Shown: in pieces, positions 3,236-25,144 of the stretch
How the letters are laid out: every line of letters begins with the position of its first letter
How positions within the stretch are numbered: the first letter of the stretch is position 1
DNA from: Acidobacteriota bacterium
Lineage (GTDB): Bacteria > Acidobacteriota > Vicinamibacteria > Vicinamibacterales > UBA8438
Assembly: GCA_009861545.1 (NCBI GenBank)
Contig: VXME01000014.1
Coordinates: forward strand, 1 to 36,052
DNA: 36,052 nt
Reading direction: 5' to 3'
Made by a program: the position numbers and the translations under genes
The notes under the pieces: generated by a model
What the model was told of the DNA's origin: nothing
The model's input: the letters and a program-made list of their open reading frames with translations, nothing else
The model's database searches: none

Positions 3236-3289
3236 CTGGAAACTCCCGCGAACGGAGGCTGAAGACAGGCGTTCGACAGCGGAAGGAGA

Positions 3290-6998: not shown

Positions 6999-7567
6999 GC
7001 GAGCCCTCCCGCACGGCGCAGGCGCCGCTCCAGGCGTTCCATCTGTCCCGTGTCGCGCTCGTGGTCGTAACCGAGCAGATGGAGAAGGCCGTGCAGGGCC
7101 AGACAGCGCAGCTCGGCGCCGAACCGGTGTCCCGCGGCGCGCGCCTGCCGGCGGGCCACGCCGGTCGCGATGACGATGTCGCCCAGATGCCGCGCCCCGC
7201 CGCCGACGGGCTCCGAAGACTCCACCTCGGCCGCGGCCGAACCGTCCGGCCCCTCCCCGGCGTCCGCCGCGCGTTCGGCCGCCTCGATGCCGGCGTCCGG
7301 CGCCGTCTCGTCGGTGACGGGAAAGGAGAGCACGTCGGTTACCCGGTCCACCCCGCGGTACCGCCGGTTGAGATCCCGCATCTTGCGATCGCAGACCAGC
7401 GCGATCACCACCTCCCCGTCGGCCGCCGCCGGCGCCACGTCGGTCAGCCACCTGCGCAGGCGGTCCGCACGCCGCACGCGACCGCGCCCATCGGTCACCA
7501 CCACGCGCAGATGACGGCGCGGGGACCGGTCAGGGTCGGGTTCGGAATCCGGATCGTCGATGCTCAT
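6995..7567 (-). CDS. ybeY: Endoribonuclease YbeY
   Basis: This 190-aa metal-dependent endoribonuclease acts in 16S rRNA 3'-end processing and ribosome quality control. The zinc-binding motif H-x3-H-x5-H is present as HGLLHLLGYDHERD, and the DVLSFP and LGDIVIATG signatures flank the core. Between DVLSFP and LGDI there are about 43 residues rich in Asp, Glu, Ala and Gly, roughly 30 more than in Escherichia coli YbeY. This looks like a lineage-specific surface loop. The ATG overlaps the phoH stop codon (ATGA). Confidence 0.95.
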   Translation of the reverse strand: MSIDDPDSEPDPDRSPRRHLRVVVTDGRGRVRRADRLRRWLTDVAPAAADGEVVIALVCDRKMRDLNRRYRGVDRVTDVLSFPVTDETAPDAGIEAAERAADAGEGPDGSAAAEVESSEPVGGGARHLGDIVIATGVARRQARAAGHRFGAELRCLALHGLLHLLGYDHERDTGQMERLERRLRRAGGLA

Positions 7568-8532: not shown

Positions 8533-8720
8533 GAGAGAGGGTGTAACGATCGGAGTTCCCCTAGTCCGCGGCGGAACTCCGCGTGACACCGTAACGGGTG
8601 AGAAGGCTGTGCGGCAAGGCTGTTCAATCGATACCACGGCCCGCGACCGGAGGTCAAGGCGCCTTGCGGACGGGTTGGAGTCTCGCTGCCGCGAAACTCG
8701 GACGCCCTTGCCGCAGACGC

Positions 8721-10493
<1,773 letters not shown>

Positions 10494-10640
10494 GGTCTTC
10501 TCTTGCCCGCTGCGCCGTCCCGCTGCCGACGACGGGATGCGTCTGCCTCGTTCTTCGTCTCACATTGCGGCGCCGACGGCGAACCGGCAGCCGCCGATCT
10601 CGCTCTCCATCGGATGTTATCGGCCGGCCGCAGCCGCGCA

Positions 10641-11879
10641 TCACTCGGACATGCGCTGCACGACCTCGGCGCGCGCCACGGCCGCCTGCTCGCCGGATTG
10701 CATGTCCTTGACGGTGACCTCGCCGCGCGCGATCTCGTCGTCGCCCAGGATGAGCACCCGGCGCGCCCCGGACCGGTCCGCCCGCTTCATCTGCGCGCGC
10801 AACGAGCGGGCGTCGTAGTCGACCAGCGTGGCCACGCCGGCGTGGCGCAGGTCGCGGGCCAGCACGTGGGCGGCCGGCCGCGCCGCCTCGCCCAACGCCA
10901 CCACGAAGGCGTCGGGCGCGGACGCGCCGGGCCCTTCCGGCATGGCCAGCACCAGCCGCTCCATGCCGGCGGCGAACCCTATGCCGGCCCGGTCGGGCCC
11001 GCCGAGCTGGCGCACCAACCCGTCGTAGCGCCCGCCGCCGAGCAGCGCGTTCTGCGCGCCGAGGCCGGAGCCCAGCACCTCGAACGTCGTCCGCGCGTAG
11101 TAGTCGAGCCCCCGCACCAGCCGGTGCGAGACGCGGTAATCCAGCTCCAGCGCCGTCAACTGGGCGGTGACCTTGCGGAAGTGCTCGTCGCACCCATCGC
11201 ACAGATAGTCCGTCGAGTGCGGCAGGTCATCGACGATCGGCTGACAGGCCGGCACCTTGCAGTCGAAGATGCGCAACGGGTTCGTGTCCGCGCGCCGCCG
11301 GCAGTCGCCGCAGAGCTTCGACTTCCGCCCCCCGAGCGCCCCCAGCAGCGCCCCGCCGAAATCCGGCCGGCACTCGCGGCAGCCGACCGAGTTGACGACC
11401 AGCTCCGCGTCCTCGATGCCGAGGGCACGGACGAGGGCCGCCGCCATCTCGATGACCTCGGCGTCCAGCGTTGCGTCCGAGACCCCGAAGACCTCGACGT
11501 CGAGCTGGTGAAACTGCCGGTAGCGCCCCTTCTGCGGTCGCTCGTAGCGGAACATCGGCCCGAAGCCGAACAGCTTGACGGTGGGCAGCGCCTGCTCGAG
11601 CGCATGCTCGACGTAGGCCCGCACCATGCTCGGCGTGGCCTCGGGCCGCAGCGTGACCCGCTCGCCTCCCTTGTCCTCGAAGGCGTACATCTCCTTCTGG
11701 ACGATGTCGGTGGTCTCCCCCGTTCCCTTCGCGAACAGCTCTTCGCGCTCGATGACCGGGGTGCGGATCTCGCGGTAGCCGTAGCGCGCGCACACGTCGC
11801 GGATCACCTTCTCGGCGTGCTGCCAGCGCTCGATCTCGCCCGGCAGGATGTCGTGCGTGCCTCGGATGGCCGGAATCAT
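10641..11879 (-). CDS. hisS: Histidyl-tRNA synthetase
   Basis: This 412-aa class II synthetase charges tRNA-His. It starts MIPAIRGTHDILPGE, the usual family N-terminus. The long open frame before that is non-coding shadow. Motif 2 (FRYERPQKGRYRQFHQ), the histidine-binding LVRGLDYYARTTFEV loop and motif 3 (GFAAGMERL) are all present. The insertion domain is cysteine-rich (CRECRP, LCGDC, CKVPAC and LCDGC), as in the subset of bacterial HisRS with paired cysteines. A C-terminal anticodon-binding domain ends the protein. A TATAAT lies about 115 bases upstream. aspS follows after 147 bases. Confidence 0.97.
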   Translation of the reverse strand: MIPAIRGTHDILPGEIERWQHAEKVIRDVCARYGYREIRTPVIEREELFAKGTGETTDIVQKEMYAFEDKGGERVTLRPEATPSMVRAYVEHALEQALPTVKLFGFGPMFRYERPQKGRYRQFHQLDVEVFGVSDATLDAEVIEMAAALVRALGIEDAELVVNSVGCRECRPDFGGALLGALGGRKSKLCGDCRRRADTNPLRIFDCKVPACQPIVDDLPHSTDYLCDGCDEHFRKVTAQLTALELDYRVSHRLVRGLDYYARTTFEVLGSGLGAQNALLGGGRYDGLVRQLGGPDRAGIGFAAGMERLVLAMPEGPGASAPDAFVVALGEAARPAAHVLARDLRHAGVATLVDYDARSLRAQMKRADRSGARRVLILGDDEIARGEVTVKDMQSGEQAAVARAEVVQRMSE

Positions 11880-11993
11880 GGAACCTGGACCGCTGCAATC
11901 ATCGGATGCGGACGGGACACGCGCGGAGCGTGGATGCCACGCGCGAATACTTCGGAGCCACGCGCGGCGCCGGAGGATGGCCGTCTCGCAAGG

Positions 11994-11999
11994 ATTATA
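11994..11999 (-). promoter_or_regulatory. Consensus -10 box for hisS
   Basis: A perfect TATAAT on the minus strand lies in the 244-base divergent region between hisS and moaA. The matching -35 region is weak (CCTGTC at a 17-base spacing). Confidence 0.45.
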
Positions 12000-12123
12000 G
12001 CCCGCTCCGAGCGTTCGACAGGTCGCGCGCCGGGCCCTGCGGAGCAACCCGGGAGCGGTTCGTGCGGCGGCGGCGGCGCTTCCGGCCCGCGCGCGCCCGC
12101 GGGGATGCGATAATGAAGGGCCG

Positions 12124-13146
12124 ATGGCCACCCGCGACCGGTTCGATCGTCCGTTGCGCAGCCTGCGGATCTCCGTCACCGACCGCTGCAACCTGCGTTG
12201 CGAGTACTGCATGCCGGAGGAGGAGTACGTCTGGCTCCCGCGCGGGGACATCCTGACCTTCGAGGAGATCGGCGCGCTCGTCGACGCCTTCACGGACGCC
12301 GGCGCCGACCGCGTCCGCCTGACCGGCGGGGAGCCGCTGTTACGCAAGGACCTGCCTGACCTGATTCAGCGGCTGGCGCGGAAACCCGCCATCCGCGATC
12401 TCGCGCTCACCACCAACGGCATGCTGCTCGCCGACCAGGCGGCCGGCCTCCGCGAAGCAGGCCTTCATCGGCTCACGGTCAGCCTGGACACGTTGCGCGC
12501 CGACCGCTTTCGCGAGCTGACCCGCTTCGACGGCGTCGCCGCCGTGCAGCGCGGCCTGGAAGCGGCGCGGGAGGCGGGCTTCACGGACCTGAAGATCGAC
12601 ACCGTGGTCATCCGCGGCGTCAACGACGACGAGCTGGTCGATCTGCTCGCCTACGGCCGGCGGGCGGGCGCGGAAGTGCGGTTCATCGAGTACATGGACG
12701 TCGGCGGGGCCACCCGCTGGTCCGTGCGGGACGTGCTCTCGCGGGCCGAGATGCTGCGGACGATCGCGGACGCGCTCGGACCGGTAACGGCCATCGAGGA
12801 GGTATCGTCCGCTCCGGCCGACCGCTTCCGGCTGCCCGACGGCCAGACATTCGGCATCATCTCGTCGACCACCGAGCCGTTCTGCCGATCCTGCGACCGC
12901 AGCCGACTGACCGCCGACGGTCTCTGGTACCGCTGCCTCTACGCGCGCGAAGGCACCGACCTGCGCGGTCCGCTGCGGGCCGGGATGTCACGCGCGGAAC
13001 TGAGCACGCTGATCGACGAAATCTGGGCCGCCCGCACCGACCGCGGGGCCGAGGTCCGGCTCGCCGCCGGCGACCGCCAGCCGCTGATCCCGATCGAGAC
13101 GCTGCAGAAGGAACCGCACCTGGAGATGCACACGCGGGGCGGGTAG
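12124..13146 (+). CDS. moaA: GTP 3',8-cyclase MoaA (molybdenum cofactor)
   Basis: This 340-aa radical SAM enzyme catalyses the first step of molybdopterin synthesis with MoaC. The N-terminal SAM cluster motif is C-x3-C-x2-C (CNLRCEYC), and the second cluster's three cysteines are in CRSCDRSRLTADGLWYRC near the C-terminus. The protein ends in Gly-Gly, the conserved MoaA tail needed for activity. LTGGEPLLRKD and LTTNGMLL are standard radical SAM strand motifs. An AAGGG sits a few bases before the ATG. No other moa gene is in the window, so the pathway genes are dispersed. It is convergent with hsdM, with 55 bases between them. Confidence 0.97.
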   Translation: MATRDRFDRPLRSLRISVTDRCNLRCEYCMPEEEYVWLPRGDILTFEEIGALVDAFTDAGADRVRLTGGEPLLRKDLPDLIQRLARKPAIRDLALTTNGMLLADQAAGLREAGLHRLTVSLDTLRADRFRELTRFDGVAAVQRGLEAAREAGFTDLKIDTVVIRGVNDDELVDLLAYGRRAGAEVRFIEYMDVGGATRWSVRDVLSRAEMLRTIADALGPVTAIEEVSSAPADRFRLPDGQTFGIISSTTEPFCRSCDRSRLTADGLWYRCLYAREGTDLRGPLRAGMSRAELSTLIDEIWAARTDRGAEVRLAAGDRQPLIPIETLQKEPHLEMHTRGG

Positions 13147-13201
13147 TACAGCGGTTCTGCACGAGCGACCCAGGGAAGCACGACCCAACCCGAAACGCAG
13201 G

Positions 13202-14716
13202 TCAATCGACCTGCCCGGCGCGTTCCTCCAGGTCAGCCAGGATTTCCTCCATCTGGCCGAGCGCGGAACGCAGATCGTCGGCGATCTCGCGGGCCAGCAC
13301 GTGCGGTTCGGGCAGGTCGGCGGCATCCTCCAGACTCTCGTCGCGCAGCCAGAACAGGTCGAGGCTCACCTTGTCGCGGTTGACGATCTCGTCGTAGGCA
13401 AAGGGCCGCCAGCGACCCTCCGGGCTCTGTTCCGACCAAGTCGCCTTCCGCGTGTGGCGGGCGCCCGGGCGGTAGCACGCGACGAACTCGTCGAGATCCG
13501 CGCGGGTCATGCGGCGGGTCTTCAGCGTGAAGTGCTTGTTCGTGCGCAGGTCGTAGACCCATACCGTCCGGGTCCAGGGCTCCTTCGCGCCCGGCTTCCG
13601 GTCGAAGAAGAGCACGTTGGCCTTGACGCCCTGTGCGTAGAAGATGCCCGTCGGCAAGCGCAGCAGGGTGTGCACCTCGCACTCGCGCAGCAAGTTGCGG
13701 CGCACGGTCTCGCCGGCGCCGCCTTCGAACAGCACGTTGTCCGGCACGACCACCGCAGCCCGGCCGTGGATCGTCAGCAGCGACTTGACGTGCTGCACGA
13801 AGTTGAGCTGCTTGTTCGAGGTGGTGGTCCAGAAGTCCGGACGGTTGTAGGTGAGCGACTGCCGGCCGGTCTCCCCCTCCGCGTTCACGACCGTGATCGA
13901 CGACTTCTTGCCGAAGGGCGGGTTGGTGATGACGACGTCCGCCAGCGCGGCCGGCGCGTCGCGCAGCGCGTCGTCGGTCGTGATCGGGGGCTCGCGCCGG
14001 TCGCCGCCGTCGGGGCCGATGCCGTGCAGGTAGAGGTTCATGCCGCACAGCCGCGCGACGTTGGGGACCAACTCCACGCCGCGCAGCGCTTCGAAGCGGA
14101 GATGCCGCTTCTGGTCGCGGTCCAGGTCGCCGCTGCCCTTGAGATACTCGTGGGCAGCGAGCAGGAAGCCGCCCGTCCCGCAAGCCGGATCGACGACGAG
14201 CTCGCCGGGCCGGGGATTCACGCACTCGACCATCGCCTGGATGACCGCGCGCGGCGTGAAGTACTGCCCAGCGCCCCCCTTGACGTCCTGAGCGTTCTTC
14301 TCCAGCAGGCCCTCGTAGGCGTCCCCCTTCACGTCAGCGGCCATCGCCGACCAGTCCTCGCGATCGATCAGCTCGACGATAAGGCGGCGCAGCTTGGCCG
14401 GATCCTGGATCCGGTTCTGCGCCTTCTCGAAGATCAGCCCGAGCATCCCACCGCGCGTGCCGAGGGCGCGCAACGTTTCGCGGTAGTGTCGATCCAGCTC
14501 GGCCCCCTCCATCGTCGGTGAGGCGAGGTTCTCCCAGCGGTAGCCGGCCGGGATCGGCTGTCCGTCGCCGGTGAGCCGCTCGCGCTCATCGGCCATCTTT
14601 AGGAAGAGCAGAAAGGTGAGCTGCTCCAGGTAGTCCTGGTAGGAGAGCCCGTCGTCGCGCAGGACGTTGCAGTACGACCAGAGCTTCTGGACGATGCGAT
14701 TGGCGGCGTCGCTCAT
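13202..14716 (-). CDS. hsdM: Type I restriction-modification system, methyltransferase subunit HsdM
   Basis: This 504-aa N6-adenine methyltransferase subunit would modify host DNA as part of an HsdM2-HsdS complex. The N-terminal HsdM domain (IVQKLWSYCNVLRDDGLSY) is followed by motif I for SAM binding (VDPACGTGGFLLAA) and catalytic motif IV NPPF (DVVITNPPFGKKS). Length is normal and the frame is intact. It is separated from its hsdS and hsdR partners by about 6.1 kb of oppositely oriented genes, which is unusual for a type I operon. The start region is only 37 bases from the divergent hicA start, so both must share a very short promoter region. Confidence 0.96.
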   Translation of the reverse strand: MSDAANRIVQKLWSYCNVLRDDGLSYQDYLEQLTFLLFLKMADERERLTGDGQPIPAGYRWENLASPTMEGAELDRHYRETLRALGTRGGMLGLIFEKAQNRIQDPAKLRRLIVELIDREDWSAMAADVKGDAYEGLLEKNAQDVKGGAGQYFTPRAVIQAMVECVNPRPGELVVDPACGTGGFLLAAHEYLKGSGDLDRDQKRHLRFEALRGVELVPNVARLCGMNLYLHGIGPDGGDRREPPITTDDALRDAPAALADVVITNPPFGKKSSITVVNAEGETGRQSLTYNRPDFWTTTSNKQLNFVQHVKSLLTIHGRAAVVVPDNVLFEGGAGETVRRNLLRECEVHTLLRLPTGIFYAQGVKANVLFFDRKPGAKEPWTRTVWVYDLRTNKHFTLKTRRMTRADLDEFVACYRPGARHTRKATWSEQSPEGRWRPFAYDEIVNRDKVSLDLFWLRDESLEDAADLPEPHVLAREIADDLRSALGQMEEILADLEERAGQVD

Positions 14717-14737
14717 GAGGAGGGCGCAGTATCGGTA

Positions 14738-14747
14738 ATGATATCAT
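14738..14747. promoter_or_regulatory. Palindrome in the hsdM/hicA divergent region
   Basis: ATGATATCAT is a perfect 10-base palindrome in the only AT-rich stretch of the 37-base divergent region, immediately before the hicA start. It could be an operator for HicB or part of a promoter. No complete promoter is evident. Confidence 0.35.
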
Positions 14748-14753
14748 GCAGGG

Positions 14754-15005
14754 GTGGCGCGGGTCGCCGACATCATCCGCAAGGCGCGAGAGAATCCTGC
14801 GACCGTGCGCTTCCGGGATCTCGTCAGGGCGTGCGACGCGTATTTCGGATCGCCGCGGCAGACCGGCACGAGCCATCGCGTGTATCGCACGCCGTGGCCC
14901 GGCGACCCCCGAGTGAACATCCAGGACGACCACGGGATGGCGAAGCCGTATCAGGTGCGTCAGGTTCTCCACGCGATCGAGAAGCTGGAGGCGCAGCATG
15001 ACTGA
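14754..15005 (+). CDS. hicA: HicA-family mRNA interferase toxin
   Basis: This 83-aa protein of the HicA fold would cleave mRNA when not bound by HicB. The catalytic histidine is in GTSHRVYRTP, where the family has G-S-H. The C-terminal KPYQVRQVLHAIEKLE helix is typical. The start is GTG at 14754; an ATG eight bases earlier is out of frame. The ribosome-binding site is weak (GCAGGG), which would keep toxin synthesis low. It overlaps the downstream hicB by eight bases, so the two are translationally coupled. Confidence 0.85.
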   Translation: MARVADIIRKARENPATVRFRDLVRACDAYFGSPRQTGTSHRVYRTPWPGDPRVNIQDDHGMAKPYQVRQVLHAIEKLEAQHD

Positions 15006-15318
15006 TCACTACACGTACCGCGTGACCTGGTCGCCGGAGGAGGGCGAGTACGCGGGCCTCTGCGCGGAATTTCCGTCACTCAGTTGGCTGGCCCCCACGG
15101 CCGAGGAAGCGTTCTCCGGAATTCGCGCGCTCGTGCACGAGGTCCTTGCAGACATGCACGCCAACGCGGAGACCCCGCCGGGGCCGCTCGCCGATCGCGC
15201 CTACAGCGGGCGGTTCCTGGTTCGCGTTCCACCTGAAACCCACCGGGCACTCGTGCTGCGAGCGGCCGAGGAAGGCGTGAGCCTCAACCGGCTGGTGAGC
15301 GCGCGCCTGGCGGATTGA
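14998..15318 (+). CDS. hicB: HicB-family antitoxin
   Basis: This 106-aa partner of the preceding toxin has an N-terminal partially degraded RNase H-like domain (YRVTWSPEEGEYAGLCAEFP, then LSWLAPTAEEAFSGI). Its C-terminal ribbon-helix-helix DNA-binding segment (GRFLVRVPPETHRALVLRAA to the end) would autoregulate the pair and could bind the palindrome upstream of hicA. The ATG is inside the end of hicA (8-base overlap). Length and domain order are normal. Confidence 0.88.
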   Translation: MTDHYTYRVTWSPEEGEYAGLCAEFPSLSWLAPTAEEAFSGIRALVHEVLADMHANAETPPGPLADRAYSGRFLVRVPPETHRALVLRAAEEGVSLNRLVSARLAD

Positions 15319-15364
15319 CGGCCTACCGTTCCGTCATGCGAGAGGACGCCTGGCATGGCGCGTA

Positions 15365-15439
15365 ATCGAGCCCGCGGGGAACCGGTCTGGCGCTGACCCT
15401 TGACCAGGCGGCGGCGTCCGCCGCGAGGACTATCACTGA
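15365..15439 (+). pseudogene. Decayed 3' end of a HigB-type toxin gene
   Basis: The last codons before a TGA at 15437-15439 read V-R-R-E-D-Y-H, the usual HigB/RelE C-terminus (V-x-x-x-D-Y-H). Just upstream, in another frame, L-A-L-T-L-D-Q resembles the preceding beta-strand. No open frame of toxin length is present in bases 15319-15439, so a frameshift and loss of the 5' part are inferred. The position, 12 bases before higA, is where higB is normally found. Confidence 0.45.
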
Positions 15440-15451
15440 CAAGACTTGCGC

Positions 15452-15820
15452 ATGTCGAAGAACACGACCGACGAGATTCCGGCAACCGGCATGCCGTCAC
15501 GCCGCCGCCCGACGCATCCCGGCGTCGTCCTGTTCGAGCTGTTTCTGCGAGAGATCCCGATGAGTCAGGCCGAGGCGGCGCGGCGAATGAACATGCCGGT
15601 CACGCGCGTCAACGAGCTCGTTCGCCGCCGGCGCGGCGTTACGGCCCGATCGGCACTTCGGCTCGGGGGGCTGCTGGGCACGACGCCCATGTTCTGGATG
15701 AACCTCCAGGCCAACTGGGACCTCTGGCACGCGCAGCAGGAAGAACGACAACCGCGCCGCAGGCCTTCGGTCCCGCCACGGGACGGCGATCGTGCCCCCG
15801 GCCTCCCTGACCGTCCGTGA
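15452..15820 (+). CDS. higA: HigA-family antitoxin, XRE-type HTH (orphan)
   Basis: This 122-aa DNA-binding antitoxin has the family signature HPGVVLFELFL followed by an XRE helix-turn-helix (MSQAEAARRMNMPVTRVNEL) and the C-terminal MFWMNLQANWDLWHA segment. The ATG at 15452 is preferred over a TTG six bases upstream. No intact toxin partner is adjacent; only a short HigB-like tail lies immediately upstream. The C-terminus is about 20 residues longer than usual and Arg/Pro-rich. An orphan antitoxin of this kind can still act as a repressor or protect against a related toxin. Confidence 0.88.
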   Translation: MSKNTTDEIPATGMPSRRRPTHPGVVLFELFLREIPMSQAEAARRMNMPVTRVNELVRRRRGVTARSALRLGGLLGTTPMFWMNLQANWDLWHAQQEERQPRRRPSVPPRDGDRAPGLPDRP

Positions 15821-15994
15821 CGGGCGGCTGATGCCGCCGCGTCAGGCGCCCGCCCGCGCGGCAAGCGCACACCATCGACATCAACTGCTCGCCGAACGAA
15901 GCCGAAGATGCCGGGGCGCGCATGACCTTGATGACGGGCCGTCGACGTCAGGGGCCCGCCCGTGCGGATCACGTGCAGCGGGCGCACGGGCGAG

Positions 15995-16024
15995 TTGACA
16001 TTGTTAGCGATGTTGGCATAGATT
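15995..16024 (+). promoter_or_regulatory. Sigma70-type promoter before the four-gene QueC-like operon
   Basis: A perfect TTGACA (15995-16000) is separated by 18 bases from TAGATT (16019-16024). The local sequence is AT-richer than its surroundings. It lies 22 bases upstream of the TTG start of the first gene and would drive the run from 16047 to 19781. Confidence 0.55.
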
Positions 16025-16046
16025 CCTGACAACAAAGGCGGGCAGC

Positions 16047-16619
16047 TTGAGCGACGGACCCCACAGGAGCCTGAACATGCGGCGCCGCTGGAAGCGGCTC
16101 GCGGAGCGCGCAGCCAACATCGCGTTCGACGACAGGGAGACCAGCGACGCATTGGCCGCGGCACTCCAGGGCGACTGGGACGTCGAAGTTCCCGAGAACT
16201 TCGTCGGGCACGTTCGCGATGCCCTCGACGATCACCAAGGCGATCTCTTCGGCACGTCGGTGACCGAGAAGCTCGAAGCACTCCGAGGTGAAGCCGCGGG
16301 TCGTCCGCTGGCCGGCGCGGTCCTGGACTGCGCGACGCAGGCGGCGGCCCAAGGGCGCCGAGGCGAAGAAGCACTTGCGAAGGCAGCCGCCGACGCGCTT
16401 CTGGAGCGCGCCGCGAGCGGCCGGCGCCAAGTAGAGGAGCATTGGCTGCGGGCATCCCGGGCTCGGAACGCCAAGGGCGTGAGAAACCGCATCGACGACG
16501 CCATTGCGGCATCCGACATGAATGACATAGCGCGGCGTTGCATTGGACGCGCCGACCGAGGGGCGTCGCAGACGCCACGCAGGAAGACTGGAATCAACGA
16601 CGGTGTGTCGTTGTCGTGA
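16047..16619 (+). CDS. Uncharacterised 190-aa protein upstream of the QueC-like gene
   Basis: I do not recognise this protein. The sequence is predicted to be mainly helical and charged, with an Arg-rich N-terminus (SLNMRRRWKRLAERA) and a long Ala/Arg/Glu-rich central part. It has no membrane segment, no signal peptide and no catalytic motif that I can see. The start is TTG at 16047 with AAAGG eight bases upstream; an ATG at 16077 is the alternative. The stop codon is 13 bases before the QueC-like gene, so the two are probably co-transcribed. Possible roles are a partner, substrate or regulator of the QueC-like enzyme (inference from position alone). Its Met-Ser-Asp-Gly N-terminus does not expose a glycine at position 2, unlike the protein partner of QueC-like enzymes in Qat systems as I recall them. 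Confidence 0.7.
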   Translation: MSDGPHRSLNMRRRWKRLAERAANIAFDDRETSDALAAALQGDWDVEVPENFVGHVRDALDDHQGDLFGTSVTEKLEALRGEAAGRPLAGAVLDCATQAAAQGRRGEEALAKAAADALLERAASGRRQVEEHWLRASRARNAKGVRNRIDDAIAASDMNDIARRCIGRADRGASQTPRRKTGINDGVSLS

Positions 16620-16632
16620 AATTGAGTACCCC

Positions 16633-18006
16633 ATGACCTCTCTCGTTCCCGAACGCCGCGTCGACGTTGTGGAGGAAGGAAGATCCGCCGGAAGAAGTCG
16701 GATCCGGTGCGGGATTGACGAACACCTGCAGTTCGACACTGAAGGCATCGAGACGTACTGCCTGGCCGGCTGGAACGCAACGGTATACGACGCGTTCGTC
16801 GTCGGCGCCGCCGTTCAGTTCTGCGACCATACGACGCGGCGCCCATCGGCCGGCTGGCGTCGTGACATTGCGCTCCGCGTTCCCGTTCATGATCCCCACC
16901 ACTGGCGGTCCACGGCGGTTTCCGAGGCGCTGCATGATGCGTTGTCGTTCCTGACCGGTGATCGGTGGCGTATCGATTTCGTTCGGCGAACAAAACACTT
17001 TGTGCCCGAGCGGCAGCAGCGCTTCGACCTCCCGCGTTCCTGTGTCGTGATGCCGTTCAGCGACGGTCTCGACTCGTACCTGATGGCGGGCCTGCTTCAG
17101 CGGGAGCATGGTGACGCGTTGGTCCGGGTCCGACTCGGAGCAAAGGCTTCCCGAGGGAAACGAGCCCGAACCTCACCGCCTCGCGCCTTCGCCTCGATGC
17201 CGTGGCGGGTGTCGTGCGGCAGGTCTGGATCGGTTGAAACGAGTGCCCGGTCACGCGGGTTCCGATTCGCACTGCTCAGCGGCATCGCCGCGTTTCTCTG
17301 CAAGAGCCGAAGAATCGTTCTGCCGGAGAGCGGCCAGGGCGCCCTGGGGCCGTCGCTGATTCCGGTTGGCCAAGCTCATGCAGACGTCCGGAATCACCCG
17401 CTGTTTATGACCAGGATGGAGCGTCTCGTACGGGCGTTGTTCGGTCACGAGGTTCACTACGAGTTTCCGCAGCTCTGGCGAACGAAGGGTCAGACCCTGG
17501 CGGCGTTCATCGAGTCGCGCCCCGACGATGCGGACTGGCTGGGCACGCGCTCATGCTGGCAAGGTGCACGACAGGTGTCGGTCTCCGGCAGTCTCCGCCA
17601 ATGCGGGATCTGCGCTGCATGCCTACTCCGACGCATGAGCGTACACGCAGCAGGGGGACGCGAGGATCCGGCAATCTACGTGTGGGAACGCCTGGGCGCC
17701 ACTCGTTTCGAGGACGGCGCCGCCGAGGCATTTACGAATCGAAGGCCCAAGGGGGCGCTTCACGAGTACGCGATTGCTGGCGTCCTGCATCTCGACCATC
17801 TGGCCAACCTGCATCGGGCACCGGCAGGCGCGGCCGTCATCGCGAGGCAGGCCTTCCTCCTGAGCAGGCCGCTCGGCCTGGACGAGCAGCAAACGAAGAA
17901 GAGGCTCACGGACATGCTCTGGCAACATGAGGACGAATGGTGCGGCTTCGTCGATTCGTTGGGGCCGCGTTCGTTCGTCGCGCAGTGGACTGCGCAAGGA
18001 CAGTGA
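16633..18006 (+). CDS. QueC-like PP-loop ATPase (7-cyano-7-deazaguanine synthase homologue) of defence-island type
   Basis: This 457-aa protein has a PP-loop S143-D-G-L-D-S148 in VVMPFSDGLDSYLMAGLL, corresponding to SGGxDS of QueC. A zinc site has C324-x2-C327-x2-C330 (CGICAAC), with a candidate fourth ligand C308. True QueC enzymes make preQ0 and are about 230 aa. This one has an extra N-terminal domain of about 130 residues and a longer C-terminus, like the QueC homologues found in phage-defence systems (QatC, Cap9 of type IV CBASS). The motif SRGFRFALLSGIAAFL follows the PP-loop domain. No other queuosine gene (queD, queE, folE) is nearby, arguing against a tRNA-modification role. The ATG at 16633 is preferred over an upstream TTG. 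One base separates its stop from the XRE-ImmA gene. Confidence 0.82.
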   Translation: MTSLVPERRVDVVEEGRSAGRSRIRCGIDEHLQFDTEGIETYCLAGWNATVYDAFVVGAAVQFCDHTTRRPSAGWRRDIALRVPVHDPHHWRSTAVSEALHDALSFLTGDRWRIDFVRRTKHFVPERQQRFDLPRSCVVMPFSDGLDSYLMAGLLQREHGDALVRVRLGAKASRGKRARTSPPRAFASMPWRVSCGRSGSVETSARSRGFRFALLSGIAAFLCKSRRIVLPESGQGALGPSLIPVGQAHADVRNHPLFMTRMERLVRALFGHEVHYEFPQLWRTKGQTLAAFIESRPDDADWLGTRSCWQGARQVSVSGSLRQCGICAACLLRRMSVHAAGGREDPAIYVWERLGATRFEDGAAEAFTNRRPKGALHEYAIAGVLHLDHLANLHRAPAGAAVIARQAFLLSRPLGLDEQQTKKRLTDMLWQHEDEWCGFVDSLGPRSFVAQWTAQGQ

Positions 18007-18007
18007 C

Positions 18008-19180
18008 ATGGCGCCGGACAGTATCGATGCGATCGACGTCGGCGCCCGCCTGCGGGGGGCGCGTGAAGCGGCGGGGCTGACGCAGACCGACGCCGCGGCC
18101 GACCTCCGCGTCGCGCGGACGACCTTGGTCGCCATGGAGCAGGGCCGCCGCCGCGTGCGGACCGAGGAGCTCCAACATCTGGCGCGTCTCTACGGCACGT
18201 CGGTCAATGCCGTACTGCGTCGCGAAGCGGTGCACGTCGATCTCGTGCCGCGTTTTCGCAAGCTCTCGAGCGCCAACGACGAGTCGGCGGAGCGGGCGGC
18301 ACGCCTGTTGACGGACCTCGTGCGCGCCGAAGTCGAGCTCGAGAACCTGCTCGGCGTCACGCGCACGCGGAACTATCCGCCGGCGAGACCGTTGCTGCCC
18401 GGCGACGTGCGCCTGCAGGCCGAGAACGACGCCACCGAACTCCGGCACTGGCTCGGATTGGGGCTGGCCCCGGTCCGCGACGTCATGAGCCTCCTGGAAC
18501 TCGACCTCGGCGTGCGCCTCTACGTCCGGCCTCTCGACAGCCGGGTGTCCGGGCTGTTCGCATACGACGACGGCGTGGGCGCGTGCATCCTGCTGAACGC
18601 CAAGCATCCGCGGGAACGGCAGGCCCAGACCGGCGTTCACGAACTCGGACACCTGACGTCCCGGCGGCAGACGCCGGACGTTTGTCGTTTCGACCGGCAG
18701 GACGATTCGCGCGAGGAACGCTACGCCAACGCGTTCGGGCGCGGATTCCTGACGCCCGCGCGAACCGTGACGGCCAAGTTCCAGGACCTGACCGCGGGCG
18801 CACCCCGCTTCACGCGACGCCACGTCATCCTGCTGGCGCACGCGTTCGGGGTGTCACGTGAGGCGATAGTCCGCCGCCTGGAGGAACTCTACCTCGTCAA
18901 GCGGGGTACCTGGGACTGGTTCGAGGCCAATGGCGGCATCACCGACGGGCAAGCGCGTGAAGTTCTCGGTGAATCGGCGGCCCAGGGCAACCGCGACGCC
19001 GGGCGGCCCGTGACCTTTCGCCTCGGACTGCTCGCCGCCGAGGCTCACCGGCAGGAGCTGCTGAGCGAAGGGCAGCTCGCGCGGTTGCTCCGCCTAGATC
19101 GCGTCGAGTTGCGCGAGGTGCTGGACGCCGCGAACGTTGACGGAAACGACACGGATGACCTTCCAAAGCTGCCTGGATAA
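18008..19180 (+). CDS. XRE-family HTH regulator fused to ImmA/IrrE metalloprotease
   Basis: This 390-aa protein has an N-terminal XRE helix-turn-helix (about residues 8-65, with LTQTDAAADLRVARTTLVAM) and a C-terminal ImmA/IrrE-type zinc metalloprotease domain. The catalytic H211-E-L-G-H215 is present, and E-x-x-A-N-x-F (EERYANAFG) follows at the place of the third zinc ligand. Proteins of this type bind DNA and, in characterised relatives, cleave a repressor after a stress signal. Start at 18008 because it lies one base after the previous stop codon and gives the HTH directly. An additional ~120 residues after the protease domain form a helical tail. It overlaps the start of the PIN-domain gene by 26 bases. 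It is the likely regulator or antitoxin of that neighbour (inference). Confidence 0.88.
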   Translation: MAPDSIDAIDVGARLRGAREAAGLTQTDAAADLRVARTTLVAMEQGRRRVRTEELQHLARLYGTSVNAVLRREAVHVDLVPRFRKLSSANDESAERAARLLTDLVRAEVELENLLGVTRTRNYPPARPLLPGDVRLQAENDATELRHWLGLGLAPVRDVMSLLELDLGVRLYVRPLDSRVSGLFAYDDGVGACILLNAKHPRERQAQTGVHELGHLTSRRQTPDVCRFDRQDDSREERYANAFGRGFLTPARTVTAKFQDLTAGAPRFTRRHVILLAHAFGVSREAIVRRLEELYLVKRGTWDWFEANGGITDGQAREVLGESAAQGNRDAGRPVTFRLGLLAAEAHRQELLSEGQLARLLRLDRVELREVLDAANVDGNDTDDLPKLPG

Positions 19181-19781
19181 TCGCACGGCCCCAGTCGTCG
19201 CCGATACGAGCGTCGTCATCAACCTGAACGCTACCGGTTGCGCGGAAACGATACTGCGCGCCCTGCCCAACCGCTGTGTCGTCGTGGAGCAGGTCTCGCT
19301 GGAGCTTCAAGTCGGTCGCCGGACCGGCCGCCCGGATGCTGACGCCCTTGCGGTGCTGATCCGCGAGAGCCTCATCGAGCATGCCCAACTCGAAGACGTG
19401 GGTCTGGTCCATTTCACCGACCTCGTCACCGGATCTGCAGCCGAGACCCTCGATGACGGCGAAGCAGCAACCATCGCCTGCGCCATCGAACGGGGCGCTG
19501 TCGCCCTCGTCGACGAGCGCAAAGCCAATCGGATCTGCACGGAACGCTTCCCAGGCCTCGGCATCGGGTGTACGGTAGACGTGCTCGCTCAGCGACACGT
19601 TCGGGGCGCGCTCGGCGGCGGTCTCGCCGATGCCGTGTTCAGCGCTCTGGATCGTGGTCGCATGCGGGTGCCCGACCACCATGGGCAGTGGGTCCTGGGT
19701 CTCATCGGCAAGGAACGGGCTGCAGGATGCCGTTCACTGCCGAAGCGGTTTCGTGTGAACAGTCCGCCGAATCCAAAATGA
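19155..19781 (+). CDS. PIN-domain ribonuclease-like protein
   Basis: This 208-aa PIN-fold protein would be a metal-dependent RNase. Acidic active-site residues are visible: Asp in VVADTSVVIN, Asp/Glu in LDDGEAATIACA, and Asp in ALVDERKANR. The arrangement resembles COG2405-type PIN proteins rather than the shorter VapC. The C-terminal 60 residues (RGALGGGLADAVFSALDRGR onwards) are a helical extension. The ATG at 19155 lies inside the end of the XRE-ImmA gene; a TTG at 19137 is an alternative. Pairs of XRE-ImmA with PIN proteins are known as putative toxin-antitoxin modules. Here the pair is the downstream half of a four-gene run that begins at 16047. Confidence 0.8.
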   Translation: MTFQSCLDNRTAPVVADTSVVINLNATGCAETILRALPNRCVVVEQVSLELQVGRRTGRPDADALAVLIRESLIEHAQLEDVGLVHFTDLVTGSAAETLDDGEAATIACAIERGAVALVDERKANRICTERFPGLGIGCTVDVLAQRHVRGALGGGLADAVFSALDRGRMRVPDHHGQWVLGLIGKERAAGCRSLPKRFRVNSPPNPK

Positions 19782-20013
19782 TCTACCGTCCGCACGAAGA
19801 GTTGTACCTGAAGGCCTTACGTCGTCGGAGCCAGAGAGCCGCTCCGGGCTTGGAACACCACCTTTCCGTCGTTCGCCTTCAGAACGTCCAGCAACCGGGT
19901 TGACCGCGGTTTCTCTCTGCAAGCGAGAGAGGCACAAACGGGGACTCCAGCTACAATGACTTCCTGAAAGTGGATGCGATTGACCAGCAGAGAGGATTGA
20001 GGAGCAAAGACAC

Positions 20014-20807
20014 ATGTCAACGAGGGACGCCGTCCGGAGGGTGCAACGTCACCGAGAAGCCAAAGAGCACTTGGCTGAGATCTACAACAGACGGGAGAGG
20101 GTCATCGTGATCCACTATTCGTGCGAGAGTTTCTACGACCGTCGGGTAGAAACCTCGCCGAGAATTACATCTATAGCAGTCCGCAACCTGGCGACCGCCC
20201 AAACAGAGTCTTTCTCGATTCATCAACTTGCTGAACGCGAGGGGAAACTCTATGACATGAAGGCCCACTACGACGAACTTGAGAGAACGAGATACTGAAG
20301 GAGTTCTTCGAGTACGCGAAGGGCCGTCTCGACTATACTTGGCTACATTGGAACATGCGCGACAGCAACTATGGGTTTGCCGCGCTGGAGCATCGGTTCC
20401 AAGTGCACGGTGGACAACCTGCCGAAATCCCGGACGTGTGCCGGCGCGATCTGTCGCGGTTGCTGTTGGAACTCTACGGTGTCAACTATATCGGCCATCC
20501 ACGACTTGAGAGCCTTGTCAGGAAGAACGACATTACTGACCGTGATTTTCTTAACGGCGAAAGCGAGGCGAAGGCATTCATAGACGGTCGGTACGTGGAC
20601 CTGCATCGCTCGACGCTCCGCAAGGTCGACATCATATCTGATATAGCCAATCGGGCGGCAGACGGTACGCTCAAGACCGACGCGAGTCCGACTGAAGTCT
20701 GCGGCAGCTATCTTGCATTCGCCGTAGCGAAGGCCAAGGAGCACTGGGTGATCTCGCTGCTAGGCATTCTCGGGGCAATCGCGAGTGTCGTGAGTTTTTT
20801 TCGGTAG
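20014..20807 (+). pseudogene. Frameshifted gene for a ~263-aa protein with a C-terminal membrane segment
   Basis: Two consecutive open frames (20014-20298 and the one ending at 20807) belong to one protein. The first half ends ...HYDELE, and the second half resumes as NEILKEFFEYAKGRLDYTWL in another frame. The junction is GAGAGA at 20281-20286; removing one GA dinucleotide restores a continuous 263-aa frame. The family is unknown to me. Visible features are a conserved-looking N-terminal segment (IVIHYSCESFYDRRVETSP), a central WLHWNMRDSNYGFAALEHRF, and a C-terminal hydrophobic helix (WVISLLGILGAIASVVSFF) ending the protein. A GAGGAG ribosome-binding site precedes the start. The shift may be decay, phase variation at a GA repeat, or an assembly error. 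Confidence 0.7.
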
Positions 20808-20822: not shown

Positions 20823-22279
20823 TCAAGCATCATTCGGATTTGCGAGCACGCCGCCGAAGGCGCCGTCAAGCACGGCCTGATGTAGTGCCGCTGTGCGAGT
20901 CTTGGTCCCAGCTATTTCGGCAACCATGGCCCGTTCGCTGTGAAACACCTTTTCAACCATATTCCTTATGCGAACCTGTTCCGCCAAAGGCGGCACCTGC
21001 AACACACATGCCGCCACATCCACTTGGTTGACCTTGTATATTCCCGCCGTTGTCTTGGCCTTGCGTTCAATCTGATCACGAGTATCCCGAGAATTCCACA
21101 GCGCCACAAAGAACCGCCGATCTATTCTGTCGCAAAGACGCACGCGAATCAAGGTGTCGGGAAACGCAACGAAATCAGGATGGTCGGACACAATTGCTCC
21201 CAGTCCGACCAAATGGATGGAACCGTTTCCACGCGACACAAGAATGTCGTTCTGACGAACAAGAAATGGCTCGGCTTCCGACGCACTCCAAGCACCAATC
21301 TTGAACTCGCTTAGATCTACGAGGCCGTTCCGTAGCGATGTCAACCGAAGGACCGGAATGCCGTGTTCCGCAGTCTTGACCGACCGCCCATTCACGAGCC
21401 GTTCGGACAGGATCTGATCGACCGTTGCCCAGCACCACCCTTCCGCGAGCGATGGCAGCGTGGCAGTGTCCGGTTCGGCCGGCTCCTTGTACCTCGCCTT
21501 CCATTTGTCGGTTGTCGGCACCTTCCCCGCCGCCTTCATCCTCGCCAGCTCGCCGTCCTCCCACCGCCGACGTCGTTCAGCAAGAATCCGCTCCAGGAGG
21601 ACGGAAGCAGGCTCGTAGTCGCGACCTTCAGCGCGGGCGAGTTCGGCCTCGGTCGGCACGAGTCGCCCCTCGACGGCGGCCTTCAAGATCGACGCGCGGT
21701 ACCGCTTCAGGTTCCGCCGCACTCGCTCCAGCGTTGCGGTGACGTCATCGAGACGCGTAAAGTACGAGTCGATGGTCTCGGCGAGTCGCTTCTGATCGTG
21801 TGGTGGAGGAACGGGCAGCGTCTGCGCTTCGAGGAATTGCTCCGGGACGCGCAACTGGCCGGCCGTGCCCTTCATCTTCGATCGCGCGGCAGCGCGAAAG
21901 TCGTCCCGGAGCAGGTAGTACGCCAACAGGTCGGGCCGAATGGCGGCGGACGGGCGGAGCACGTGGAACTCCGTGGAGCCGGCGCCGACGCCGTTGTGGA
22001 GACCCTTGCTACCGCCAGCTTGCCGTTCTCCATGCAGGGCGTGATCTTCGCGAAGAGGACGTCACCTTCCTGGAATCGCTTGTAGCCCTTCCTGACCTCA
22101 CGCCACGGCCGGGTTTCACTCGTGTCGATGCCCTCCGCCATCACCTGGACAGCGGCCATCGGAACGAACGAAACGGGAGTGTCGTCGTCGGGCGGGACCT
22201 CCGGGTTGGGAGGGTTGATCTCCACGACTTCGGACAGTCGCGCTTCGGTCCAGCCCGGCGGCAGGCGCTTCCTGCTCAC
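20823..22279 (-). pseudogene. hsdS: Type I restriction-modification specificity subunit HsdS, frameshifted
   Basis: HsdS determines the recognition sequence through two target-recognition domains. The first open frame (from 22279) starts MSRKRLPPGWTEARLSEVVEI and runs to ENGKLAVA. The correct frame then continues as HNGVGAGSTEFHVLRP to the end at 20823. One base is missing near 22003-22007, in a short C run (G run on the coding strand), so the intact protein would be about 485 aa. The conserved central region RAEGRDYEPASVLLERILAE and a second recognition domain (GWCWATVDQIL...) are complete. Its GTG start overlaps the hsdR stop codon (GTGA), showing it belongs to the same operon. Without full-length HsdS neither modification nor restriction by this complex is expected, unless the shift is an assembly error. 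Confidence 0.85.
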
Positions 22280-25144
22280 GCCGCCAGTACCCCGTTCAGC
22301 TCATCCAGCAGCGGTGCGAGCCCGTCGCCGAAGATCCGCGTCGCGCGACCGAGGCCGCCCTCTTCCGCGAACGGCGCGTAGTCGAGATCCTCCACCGTCA
22401 TCTCCACGCTGGCCGCGATGTGGTCGCGGATCATCTCCAGCCAGCGAACCTGCTCGGTCGTGAAGTCGCGGCCTGCGGTGCGCTGCCGTGCGAGCCACTG
22501 GTCGAAACGTCCCCGCACGCGCTCGCCGAACGGCGCCAGCTCGTCGTCCCGGTCCATCGCGAAGCGCACCAGAGAGACGAGATCGGTGAGCAGCCGCTGC
22601 GCCGACGCGCCCCGGACCCGGTCCCTGTCCAGCGTCTCGTAGGCGCGCCAGAGCTTCTCGGGCGTTCCAGGCGCGGGGCGGCGCCTTGATTTCGTCGGCC
22701 AGCGTCTTGAGGTCGCTGAAGCGGAGACGCTTCGCATACGGCATCCCGTAGAAGCACTGGAGGGCGTCGATCTCGTCCTTGTTGTCCGCGATGAACCGCT
22801 CGAACGAGTCGACCAGCGACTTCGCCTTCTGCTTCGCCTCCTCGCTCGCCCCCGCCTCGATCAACTCGTCCACGGTGATGTCGTCGATGAGCTGCTCCAG
22901 CTTACGCTTGATGTCCTGCAGAAGGTGGCGGAGCTTGGGTCTGGTGGAGATCGGCGCGGCGGCCTGCTTGAGGAGCGTCGTCGCGGCCTGCTGCACTTGT
23001 TGATCGGTCGGCTCGTCACCGGCGGGCACATCGAACATCGAACGCGCCTTCGTGACCTGACGATCCGGATCGAGCCCGTCGACGATGGCGTGGCTGATGG
23101 CCCCAATGCTGGCGCCGCCGGACACTTCGGCGATGCGCTCGCGCTCCTCCGGCCCACACTGTCGATCGAGCCGCGCGAGCCGGCCAGCGAGCGACGACAG
23201 CATGGCCGGATCGGTCCCGCCCATGGCGACGTGCTCGAGCAGGGCCTTGAAGGAGACGGCCTTCTTCCGCTCCAGCGGCTGGGTGTCGGCGAGCGGGACG
23301 TCGGACACCCCGACGCAGTCGACGATGACGAAGTGCGTCTTGGCCCGGGCGTCGGGCGTCACCGCCTGCAGCTCGCGCGCGTCGATGACGCGAACGCCGC
23401 GGCCCTTCATCTGCTCGAAGAGCACGCGGCTCTTGACCGCCCGCATGAACATGACGATCTCGATCGGCCTGATGTCGGCGCCGGTGCTGATCATGTCCAC
23501 CGTGACGGCGATGCGCGGCTCGAAGCTGTTGCGGAACGCCTGGATCAGGTCGCGCGGCTTGGCGGCGGTCACCTTGTAGGTGATCTTCTGGCAGAAATCG
23601 TTTCCGCGGCCGAACTCGTCGCGGACGATCTCGACGATGTCCTCGGCGTGGCTGTCGTCCTTGGCGAAGACGAGCGTCTTCGGCACCTCCGTCCGGCCGG
23701 GGAAGATGTCGGTGAAGAGACGGTCGCGGAACGCGCGGACGATGGTGCGGATCTGGTCGCGCGCGACCACGCGGCGGTCGAGCTCGGCGGCGTCGTAGGT
23801 GATGTCCTCGTCAGGCCGCTCCCACCGCCGCTGACGTGTCTGGCGGTCGCGGTACTCGACCATCGTGTCGGGCGCCGCCTCGATGGTGGCGCCCTGCCCG
23901 GTGATCCGAGTGCGGATGTCGTAGACCTCGAAGTCGACGTTGACGCCGTCGGCCACCGCGCGCTCGTGGTCGTACTCCATGACCAGGTTCTTGTTGAAGA
24001 ACCCGAAGGTTTGCTTGGCCGGCGTCGCGGTGAGGCCGACGAGGAAGGCGTCGAAGTACTCCAGCACCTGCCGCCACACGGTGTAGATGGAGCGGTGGCA
24101 TTCGTCAATGACGATGACGTCGAAGTACTCCGGCGGGTAGGCCGGGTTGTAGACGACCGGCAGCGGTTCACCGAGCGCGCCGGCGCCCGGTTCGAACTGC
24201 GACGCCGCTTCGTCCTCCGCCGCGAAATCGGGCTCTCCCTTGAGCATCGAGTAGAGACGCTGGATCGTGGTGATGACCACCTTGCTGGCCGCGCCGATGG
24301 TGTTCGACGTCAGGCGCTGGACGGTGTAAAGCTCGGTGAACTTCCGGTGATCGTCCGGCGTGCGGAAGCCCTGGAACTCCTTCTCCGCCTGCTCGCCGAG
24401 GTTGCTCCTGTCGACGAGGAACAGCACTCGCCGCGCGCCGGCGTAGCGGATGAGCCGGTAGACGGACGTGATGGCGAAGATCGTCTTGCCGGACCCGGTC
24501 GCCATCTGGACCAGCGACCGCGGATGGTTGCGCTTGAGTGACCATTCGACGTTTCCCACGGCCTCGACCTGGACCGGATAGAGGAAGTCCTGCTCCAGCT
24601 CCGGCAACGTCTGAATACGGCCGCGCAACGACGACGGACACGTCTCGTCGGCCGCTGTGTGGAGGCCTCCACCTTCAATGTGAAGGCGTCTTACCCAGGC
24701 GTCGAGGGTCTCCGCCCGAACCCATTCCGCCAGTGTTTCCGGCCGGTGAATGTGCGGCAGGTGCGAGATGCGACGGCTCTTCGGATCCGGGTCCAGACCG
24801 TTGATGAATCTCGTGTCGACGCCGGTGCTGACGTACAGGAACGGGAGCGGTCTGACCGGCGGATTCAGCACCGCCGGCAGCCCCGTCGCATACTTGTCGG
24901 CCTGCAACTCGACGCTGGACAGGGTGTATCCGACCGGCTTCGCTTCGAGCACGCCGACGGCCTGCCCGTCGACGAACAGCATGTAGTCGGCGAATCCGTG
25001 GCTCGGCGCCATCTTGAACTCGCGCACGGCGACCCCGAGCCCGGCCGCTAGGTTCATCCCGTCGCGGTCCTGGACAATCCAGCCCGCGTCGGCAAGGGCC
25101 GTGTCGATTTCCTCGCGGGCCTGTTGTTCCGGCGTCAGCGGCAT
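22276..25144 (-). pseudogene. hsdR: Type I restriction enzyme subunit HsdR, frameshifted near the C-terminus
   Basis: HsdR is the DNA translocase/endonuclease subunit. Visible in the first ~820 residues: the PD-(D/E)xK nuclease (FADYMLFVDGQAVGVLEAKP), Walker A (MATGSGKTIFAIT), the DECH helicase motif (VIVIDECHRSIYTVW), and GLTATP. The frame breaks near 22665, where an extra base in an AA pair turns A-W-T-P-E-K-L-W into a different frame. The correct C-terminal ~135 residues (TPEKLWRAYETLDRDRVRG to DELNGVLAA) continue in the other frame and end at a TGA that overlaps the hsdS start by four bases. The restored length would be about 955 aa. The truncation removes the C-terminal region that in relatives contacts the HsdM/HsdS core. 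Confidence 0.88.

Follow-up and report, generated by a model that had tools for sequence, protein, structure and literature searches.

A mobile four-gene cassette is found with little change in distantly related bacteria, most often in the company of genes for phage defence. The copy analyzed here, in a 36,052-nucleotide stretch of Acidobacteriota DNA (contig VXME01000014.1; hereafter the window), encodes a small protein, a divergent QatC-family enzyme, an ImmA-type protease with an XRE domain, and a predicted RNA-cutting, toxin-type PIN-like nuclease. We lean toward reading the cassette as a two-layer, often plasmid-borne defence module in which a Qat-like modification pair controls a protease-antitoxin/PIN suicide module; the chemistry, trigger, direction of control and defence outcome are what we infer. 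Literature searches for QueC with ImmA or PIN, and for QatC with toxin-antitoxin systems, returned no description of such a cassette.

An earlier note, made from the letters of the window, had described four closely spaced genes behind one promoter-like site, and its coordinates and spacings were all confirmed. The four frames lie on the forward strand and are intact with their catalytic residues: gene 1 (16047–16619, 190 residues, TTG start), gene 2 (16633–18006, 457 residues), gene 3 (18008–19180, 390 residues) and gene 4 (19155–19781, 208 residues). Genes 1 and 2 are separated by 13 bases and genes 2 and 3 by a single base; genes 3 and 4 overlap by 26 bases, an overlap that, according to annotations and coordinates, is also found in most other cassettes. 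A single sigma-70-like promoter (15995–16024, forward strand) consists of TTGACA, an 18-nucleotide spacer and TAGATT (10 of 12 matches), and no second promoter-like site was found within 15850–20100, where shuffling predicts 0.3; at other loci, a homologous TTGAC[AT] lies at about −45 to −60. For the TTG start of gene 1 there is support from homologues, which begin at the same residue, with GTG at loci L014 and L015 and ATG at L016 and ten plasmid loci, all sharing the sequence MSDGPH[RK]SL.

The same gene order is present in two further Acidobacteriota genomes and in 25 alphaproteobacterial plasmid records and is thus not due to chance. Co-occurrence of the gene 2 clade and ImmA was surveyed in 396 genomes of one phylum and in the PLSDB plasmids, where a QatC match had to cover at least 80% of the query and an ImmA match to reach E<1e-20. 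Gene 2 and ImmA matched one and the same set of 25 plasmid records, as anticipated for the coupled cassette proposed earlier; a QatC of this clade was never seen on a plasmid without ImmA. All four genes stand in order at L015, L016, L028–L037 and L039–L046, and at L038 gene 1 is broken. Pairwise distances among the four genes are correlated with r of 0.91–0.97, a level reached in none of 2000 permutations, and within group 1 (see the gene 1 N-termini below) the correlation is still 0.92–0.95. Judging from these sequence comparisons, it is well supported that the four genes are coupled in a conserved unit. Many cassette loci lie among defence genes. The L015 copy is situated between HmaB-like and HmaA-like genes, and that of the window is embedded in a type I restriction-modification locus on the reverse strand, comprising hsdM (13202–14716; PADLOC MTase_I, 2.9e-191), hsdS (20823–22279), which is split over two overlapping frames (20823–21962 and 21872–22279), and hsdR, a ResIII/SNF2 helicase identified by profile matches (22301–25144).

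The cassette promoter is covered by a putative operator. In the window, TTGACATTGTTAG (15995–16007, forward strand) spans the −35 box and follows the consensus palindrome TGACA(N)TGTCA. The operator is present in all 23 cassette upstream regions: a scan found at most one mismatch to GACANTGTC in 18, and the other five contain GACATGTC, in which the centre base is missing. In the 6.35-Mb genome, TTGACATTGTNAG occurs once, at the cassette promoter/operator site. The operator also precedes related ImmA-PIN pairs without intact genes 1 and 2 (L075, L076 and L077). By inspection, a CTGACA half-site lies just 5′ of the ribosome-binding region (16026–16031, forward strand), and CTGACAT is seen at the equivalent place in many upstream regions. 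We propose the operator as a candidate binding site for the XRE domain of gene 3.

By the profile searches performed, gene 1 is a new family, matching no Pfam or PADLOC family and no NCBIfam family above its cut-off; relatives were found neither in viral contigs nor in phage records. Comparison with nine canonical QatB proteins using hhalign revealed no detectable similarity (probability 0.6), and in place of the MGTS N-terminus of QatB, gene 1 proteins carry MSDGP, MTDGP or MPDG. Because of this lack of similarity, it is by analogy that we consider gene 1 a candidate QatC substrate or partner, the functional counterpart of QatB. Its N-terminus is its best-conserved part, as is likewise the case for known QueC-family protein substrates: the first nine residues have a mean column conservation of 0.83, whereas the remainder averages 0.42 and no other stretch of nine residues exceeds 0.65. 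The N-termini read MSDGPH[RK]SL in group 1 (for example MSDGPHRSL), MTDGPFRN in group 2 and MPDG in group 3 (L019); the L040 protein begins MRDG, from which Met removal is not expected. A C-terminal [DN]-[DQE]-G is also conserved. An AF2 model built with one homologue had a pLDDT of 43, too poor for use. That gene 1 might be a truncated QatB was rejected, as its start and its length are kept across 14 loci, and a start of the L019 gene at MGGS in another frame was dropped, since the operator begins 35 bases before the MPDG start, which opens an intact frame.

Gene 2 had been called QueC-like, a label that can be sharpened to QatC-like, with a PADLOC QatC match of 1.6e-32 versus 0.0016 for Pfam QueC. 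It matches NCBIfam NF041925 at 2.6e-35, below the equivalog cut-off of that family, as well as the QatC structures 9vlk and 9zee in the PDB, and in the tree its clade forms a long branch (SH-aLRT 99). The N- and C-terminal extensions of QatC are present, as are WxR, DxW, RxRxxxF, HP (FP in group 2), P(x)4TK and the zinc cysteines; the motifs WxR, DxW, RxR, P(x)4TK and C..CGxC are shared with QatC (PMC13329287). Gene 2 is, on these features, a deeply divergent QatC and not a queuosine QueC. The queuosine signature YxQxHxxE, VPxRN and YPDC is not found in it, the Asp/Tyr of YPDC alone being shared.

The active site of gene 2 has features of its own. Its PP-loop, SDGLDS (17059–17076, forward strand), conforms to a signature S-[DENK]-G-[LM]-D-S that replaces SGGxDS in all 22 clade members. 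At the site of the Y-x-D nucleobase-reading motif it has HADV (17377–17388, forward strand), in which Asp251, aligned with the QueC YPDC motif in two separate alignments, is invariant (22/22); the Tyr is kept in most relatives but replaced by His in the window copy, by Leu in L014 and by Pro in L015 and L016. The T278/T280 pair of QatC is absent from all 22 clade members, which have the invariant Asp instead, and STR[TH] occupies that site in eight of nine other QatC proteins examined, plus L047 and L048. The group 3 protein (L019) has S-x-S at the Y-x-D site and an SGG PP-loop. No gene 2 relatives were found in the viral contigs searched. Tgt and PTPS are encoded in all three genomes surveyed, and a canonical QueC (L058) in that of the window only, away from the cassette; the cassette carriers G214 and G270 showed no canonical QueC, and they alone gave QueE-like matches, which were partial.

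The earlier label for gene 3 holds. Profile matches identify gene 3 as an XRE-ImmA protein, comprising an XRE HTH, an M78 (ImmA/IrrE) protease domain with HELGH at 18638–18652, and a UPF0175-like C-terminal part; HTH and M78 were detected in 14 of 14 ImmA proteins and UPF0175 in 9 of 14. Among the listed partners of PIN toxins is UPF0175, and HTH-M78 fusions often have a PIN toxin as neighbour (PMC2701414); in RosmerTA, an anti-phage defence system, the ImmA antitoxin RmrA is paired with RmrT toxins (PMC10440598). As in RosmerTA, an HTH-M78 protein with HExxH here adjoins a toxin-type gene, and we propose gene 3 as an RmrA-like autorepressor and protease-antitoxin. The PIN label of gene 4 rests on its acidic residues D17, E50, D101 and D120, invariant in 12 aligned sequences including stand-alone ImmA-PIN pairs, and on a match (4.6e-11) to PADLOC PDC-S70, which PMC12988326 describes as a PIN nuclease. 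The window protein has no Pfam match, and PF01850 was matched by 2 of 14 such proteins (best 0.012). Modelled alone, the protein gave an unusable fold (pLDDT 33), and a profile comparison with five local VapC/PIN proteins was of no use, since the alignment was poor. At L075 and L076, an internal deletion has removed genes 1 and 2 while operator, ImmA and PIN are retained; ImmA-PIN also occurs without intact genes 1 and 2 at L077 and L078. The one ImmA match in viral contigs is in a phage contig with a whole ImmA and a PIN cut after about residue 54. Retention of the pair in natural deletion derivatives and truncation of the phage PIN are as expected of an antitoxin-toxin pair; they suggest gene 4 as a candidate toxin and support the effector role assigned to the pair before.

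The cassette shares features with several known systems. Its QatC-family enzyme with both extensions, PP-loop and zinc cysteines, the small gene directly 5′ with a conserved N-terminus and the defence-island setting recall the QatB-QatC core of Qat. However, QatA (KAP ATPase) and QatD (TatD nuclease), both present in the canonical loci L047 and L048, are absent from the window region and the annotated plasmid neighbourhoods, and the cassette has a fixed ImmA-PIN pair, which no canonical Qat locus that was inspected carries. The partner begins M[STP]DG rather than MGTS and lacks a long N-terminal tail, and the enzyme has S[DENK]GxDS and Y-x-D in place of SGGxDS and T-x-T. With type IV CBASS, the cassette shares a QueC-fold enzyme adjoining a protein whose N-terminus is conserved (MGGS in CBASS) and the nucleobase-reading Asp of QueC/Cap9, but its enzyme has 457 residues versus about 185 in Cap9, and neither a CD-NTase nor the TGT-like Cap10 is annotated in the plasmid loci inspected or among the window neighbours identified. 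The view that this is not a standard Qat or CBASS system thus stands. RosmerTA and the HTH-COG2856/PIN candidates of Makarova et al. (2009) likewise combine an HTH-M78 antitoxin with an adjoining nuclease-type toxin on plasmids and phages; the pair here differs in its UPF0175-like part, its PDC-S70-type PIN and its co-inheritance with a preceding QatC-like pair. PDC-S70, a PADLOC candidate from guilt-by-embedding, is listed as a single-gene candidate, whereas here the gene that matches its profile stands fourth in an operon.

In the mechanism we favour, genes 1 and 2 would form a QatBC-like pair, the first layer. Gene 2 would be an ATP-dependent enzyme of the QueC fold that acts on the conserved gene 1 N-terminus, probably once Met removal has laid bare a Ser, Thr or Pro before Asp-Gly. 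A modifier role had been suggested earlier; the analogy to QatBC and Cap9, together with the conserved gene 1 N-terminus, supports modifier and substrate roles for the pair. The donor would most likely be a 7-deazaguanine acid such as CDG, because gene 2 retains the Asp at the site where QueC and Cap9 recognise 7-deazaguanine; CDG supply is uncertain given the QueC and QueE findings in G214 and G270, and the donor need not be CDG in all cassettes given the group 3 active site. In the second layer, gene 3 would repress the operon through its XRE domain and hold the gene 4 protein, perhaps via its UPF0175-like part. Infection, sensed via the gene 1–2 complex, would switch on the M78 protease, the repressor-antitoxin would be inactivated and the operon de-repressed, and the freed PIN nuclease would stop growth before phage release. 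Tentatively, gene 2 might conjugate a 7-deazaguanine-type nucleobase to the gene 1 N-terminus, with the mark or the gene 1–2 complex controlling ImmA and, through it, PIN; if true, conjugation of protein and nucleobase would gate a toxin-antitoxin system.

Two independent modules may instead travel together without signalling: QatBC-like genes that provide defence by themselves, and an ImmA-PIN pair that serves only to retain the plasmid or island and provides a regulated promoter. We consider this rather unlikely, though canonical QatBC gives protection from some phages by itself (PMC13279940), HTH-M78/PIN pairs are long-known toxin-antitoxin candidates (PMC2701414), and the pair, which persists on its own at the four loci above, may only stabilise the plasmid. 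Against independence stand the strict plasmid co-occurrence, the one promoter with tight or overlapping genes, and the presence of ImmA-PIN beside even the divergent L019 QatC. A canonical Qat that lost qatA and qatD and acquired a toxin-antitoxin pair would explain the QatC match and shared motifs while keeping Qat chemistry and a threonine-type active site, but the long separate branch, the Asp in place of T278/T280, a PP-loop that is never SGG in the clade, and a gene 1 without MGTS or detectable QatB similarity make it improbable.

Two further explanations appear very improbable. The NCBI annotation of plasmid gene 2 copies as 7-cyano-7-deazaguanine synthase and the kept YPDC Asp would suit a preQ0-type small-molecule enzyme feeding tRNA or DNA modification beside a toxin-antitoxin pair. 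Yet gene 2 is far closer to QatC, which does not substitute for QueC (PMC13329287), and it always accompanies gene 1 and ImmA-PIN; no queuosine biosynthesis genes, which would have spoken against the coupled-cassette reading, are listed beside it in the annotated loci inspected, and the host has its own QueC. Decay of the window copy within a broken restriction-modification locus might be read from the split hsdS, the His at the Y-x-D Tyr and the TTG start, but the four frames are intact with their catalytic residues, promoter and operator are present, and the 76–95% identical cassette of L014, another Acidobacteria MAG, indicates continued constraint.

How QatC works chemically and by what means QatBC blocks phages are named as open questions in the literature (PMC13279940). 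The gene 2 clade is a naturally occurring variant in which the nucleobase-reading Asp, lost from Qat enzymes, persists and the partner is short and compact, not long-tailed as in Qat. As a candidate effector and a candidate regulator are encoded alongside, substrate, modification and effector become testable in one small construct, for which intact cassettes, such as those from Labrenzia or Methylocystis, and natural deletion derivatives are ready-made comparisons. The cassette is currently hidden by the annotation of its plasmid copies as 7-cyano-7-deazaguanine synthase, hypothetical protein or XRE regulator.

Profile matches place gene 2 of the cassette (16633-18006, +) in the QatC family: it matches QatC in PADLOC (1.6e-32) and, under the equivalog cut-off, in NCBIfam (2.6e-35), the Pfam QueC match is 0.0016 only, and its top solved structures are QatC 9vlk and 9zee. 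In all 22 members of the gene 2 clade, S-[DENK]-G-[LM]-D-S stands in place of SGGxDS, ESGQG replaces ENG, and an Asp, usually within Y-x-D-Y-R-N, is invariant, whereas canonical QatC has STR[TH] at this site. HMMER and hhalign agree in aligning this residue with the Asp of QueC YPDC, which reads 7-deazaguanine in QueC and Cap9 (PMC13279940); because of this correspondence, a CDG-like donor would be the natural inference. In all four Acidobacteriota copies another residue (His, Leu, Pro or Pro) replaces the Tyr of Y-x-D, which the locus L040 also lacks, and the divergent L019 lineage is without the Asp. The window's genome holds another QueC-family gene (contig 95, 4585-5853; PP-loop SAGLDS), which adjoins a QueD-like gene and is separate from the canonical QueC at a further locus.

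Gene 1 (16047-16619, +) had no match above cut-off in family profile searches, and its TTG start is backed by homologues with GTG or ATG at the same residue. Although overall identity to the window protein can be as low as 30%, conservation peaks over the first nine residues. They read MSDGPH[RK]SL at 14 loci (group 1), MTDGPFRN in group 2, which is homologous along the entire length (hhalign probability 97), and MPDG in L019 (group 3), whose resemblance to other gene 1 proteins was found at the N-terminus only; the L040 protein begins M-R-D-G. The C-terminal end is mostly a conserved [DN]-[DQE]-G. This N-terminus parallels the MGTS of QatB, an essential feature in Qat (PMC13279940), and the MGGS protein of type IV CBASS, to whose N-terminal glycine Cap9 attaches 7-deazaguanine (PMC13279940, PMC11996544). 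The parallel suggests that gene 1 encodes a substrate; homology was not found when gene 1 was compared with QatB.

Gene 3 (ImmA; 18008-19180, +) combines an XRE HTH with an M78 protease domain carrying HELGH; in 9 of 14 homologues, the C-terminal part matches UPF0175. UPF0175 (COG2886) is listed among the partners of PIN toxins, next to which HTH-M78 fusions recur (PMC2701414), and RosmerTA defence systems pair ImmA antitoxins with diverse toxins (PMC10440598). Gene 4 (19155-19781, +) is PIN-like by its invariant D17, E50, D101 and D120 and its match to PDC-S70, described as a PIN nuclease (PMC12988326).

The ORF positions, spacing and promoter-like site of the earlier note were confirmed for all four genes. 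Family matches show a type I restriction-modification locus around the cassette, with hsdM (13202-14716, −) on one side and hsdS/hsdR (20823-25144, −) on the other; HicB-type and HigA-type genes lie there too. The hsdS is split across two overlapping frames (20823-22279, −) and may be frameshifted or reflect an assembly error. A small ORF before the HicB-type gene (14998-15318) stands where HicA would (region 14754-15820); the HigA-type antitoxin gene follows (15446-15820), with no HigB seen nearby. An ORF at 12124-13146 (+) matches PADLOC viperin (9.5e-17) but could easily encode a different radical-SAM protein, for example MoaA.

We surveyed a sample of one phylum's genomes and one plasmid database. 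Full cassettes occur in two further Acidobacteriota genomes (L015, L016), and a 3-kb Acidobacteriota contig carries genes 1, 2 and the start of gene 3 (76%, 89% and 95% identity) along with a relic of the window's HigA interrupted by a stop. In L015 (positions 3-19107), the cassette lies between HmaB-like and HmaA-like genes, with an HmaC-like gene also present; here too, the cassette has inserted into a defence locus based on methylation. Flanking genes vary between loci, which indicates that the cassette is mobile as a single four-gene unit. Exactly the same 25 plasmid records, all from Alphaproteobacteria, carry QatC (at least 80% of gene 2 covered) and ImmA (E<1e-20) matches, the lists being matched by eye; near copies (four Labrenzia, three rhizogenes-type) leave roughly 17-18 independent cases. 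Distance matrices of the four genes correlate at r 0.91-0.97 across 16 loci and 0.92-0.95 within group 1.

The palindrome TTGAC[AT]TTGTCAG or a close variant lies near −50, overlapping the −35 box, in 23 of 23 upstream regions inspected (15995-16007 in the window, its single occurrence in that genome), and a CTGACAT half-site lies near the ribosome-binding site in many. It also precedes ImmA in related ImmA-PIN pairs that retain little or no gene 1-2 coding (L075, L076 and, with one mismatch, L077), but is absent from four canonical Qat upstream regions and from before ImmA of phage contig L064 and the distant L078. Given this distribution, the XRE domain of gene 3 likely binds it.

Natural deletions separate the two halves of the cassette. 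In L075 (G184), the operator and 18 gene 1 codons (MSDGPHRSLPLERDYPGC) are fused to what remains of gene 2, its final ~30 codons; ImmA and PIN are both intact. L076 (G235), whose gene 1 relic begins MPDG, has the same kind of deletion in that lineage. The phage contig (IMGVR_UViG_3300014656_000076, 5881-7633) lacks genes 1-2 and encodes a full-length ImmA, 62% identical and retaining HELGH; the PIN frame behind it diverges past ~54 residues. This ImmA is possibly a phage-borne antitoxin. Because the L075 and phage ImmA proteins nest within the cassette clade of the ImmA tree, loss of genes 1-2 was probably secondary in these two. PIN without ImmA was not seen among the loci inspected, which, with the deletions keeping both and the truncated phage PIN, is consistent with ImmA being the antitoxin to a PIN toxin. 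Two further loci keep ImmA and PIN whole beside a gene broken into two frames: gene 1 in Sinorhizobium fredii NXT3 (L038, 7001-7577) and gene 2 in Mesorhizobium huakuii 583 (L045, 6007-7366).

Our open-licence literature search found no paper describing the cassette, and a recent QueC-family survey treats QatC with qatA/qatD, leaving ImmA and toxins unmentioned (PMC13329287). The main rival to a functional link is that genes 1-2 and ImmA-PIN co-travel without signalling. The single promoter, overlapping genes and strict co-occurrence weigh against this, though not decisively, as does L019 (G173, 6454-10396, −). That locus represents a third lineage, strongly diverged but arranged alike: an MPDG protein, a QatC with SGGLDS and an S-x-S site, ImmA (36%) and PIN (34%), behind a perfect operator beginning 35 bases upstream of the MPDG start. 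On these grounds we favour coupling, in which a QatBC-like modification pair would control the ImmA-PIN module. The individual parts are of known kinds; their combination, the gene 1 partner family and this QatC clade appear to be undescribed.
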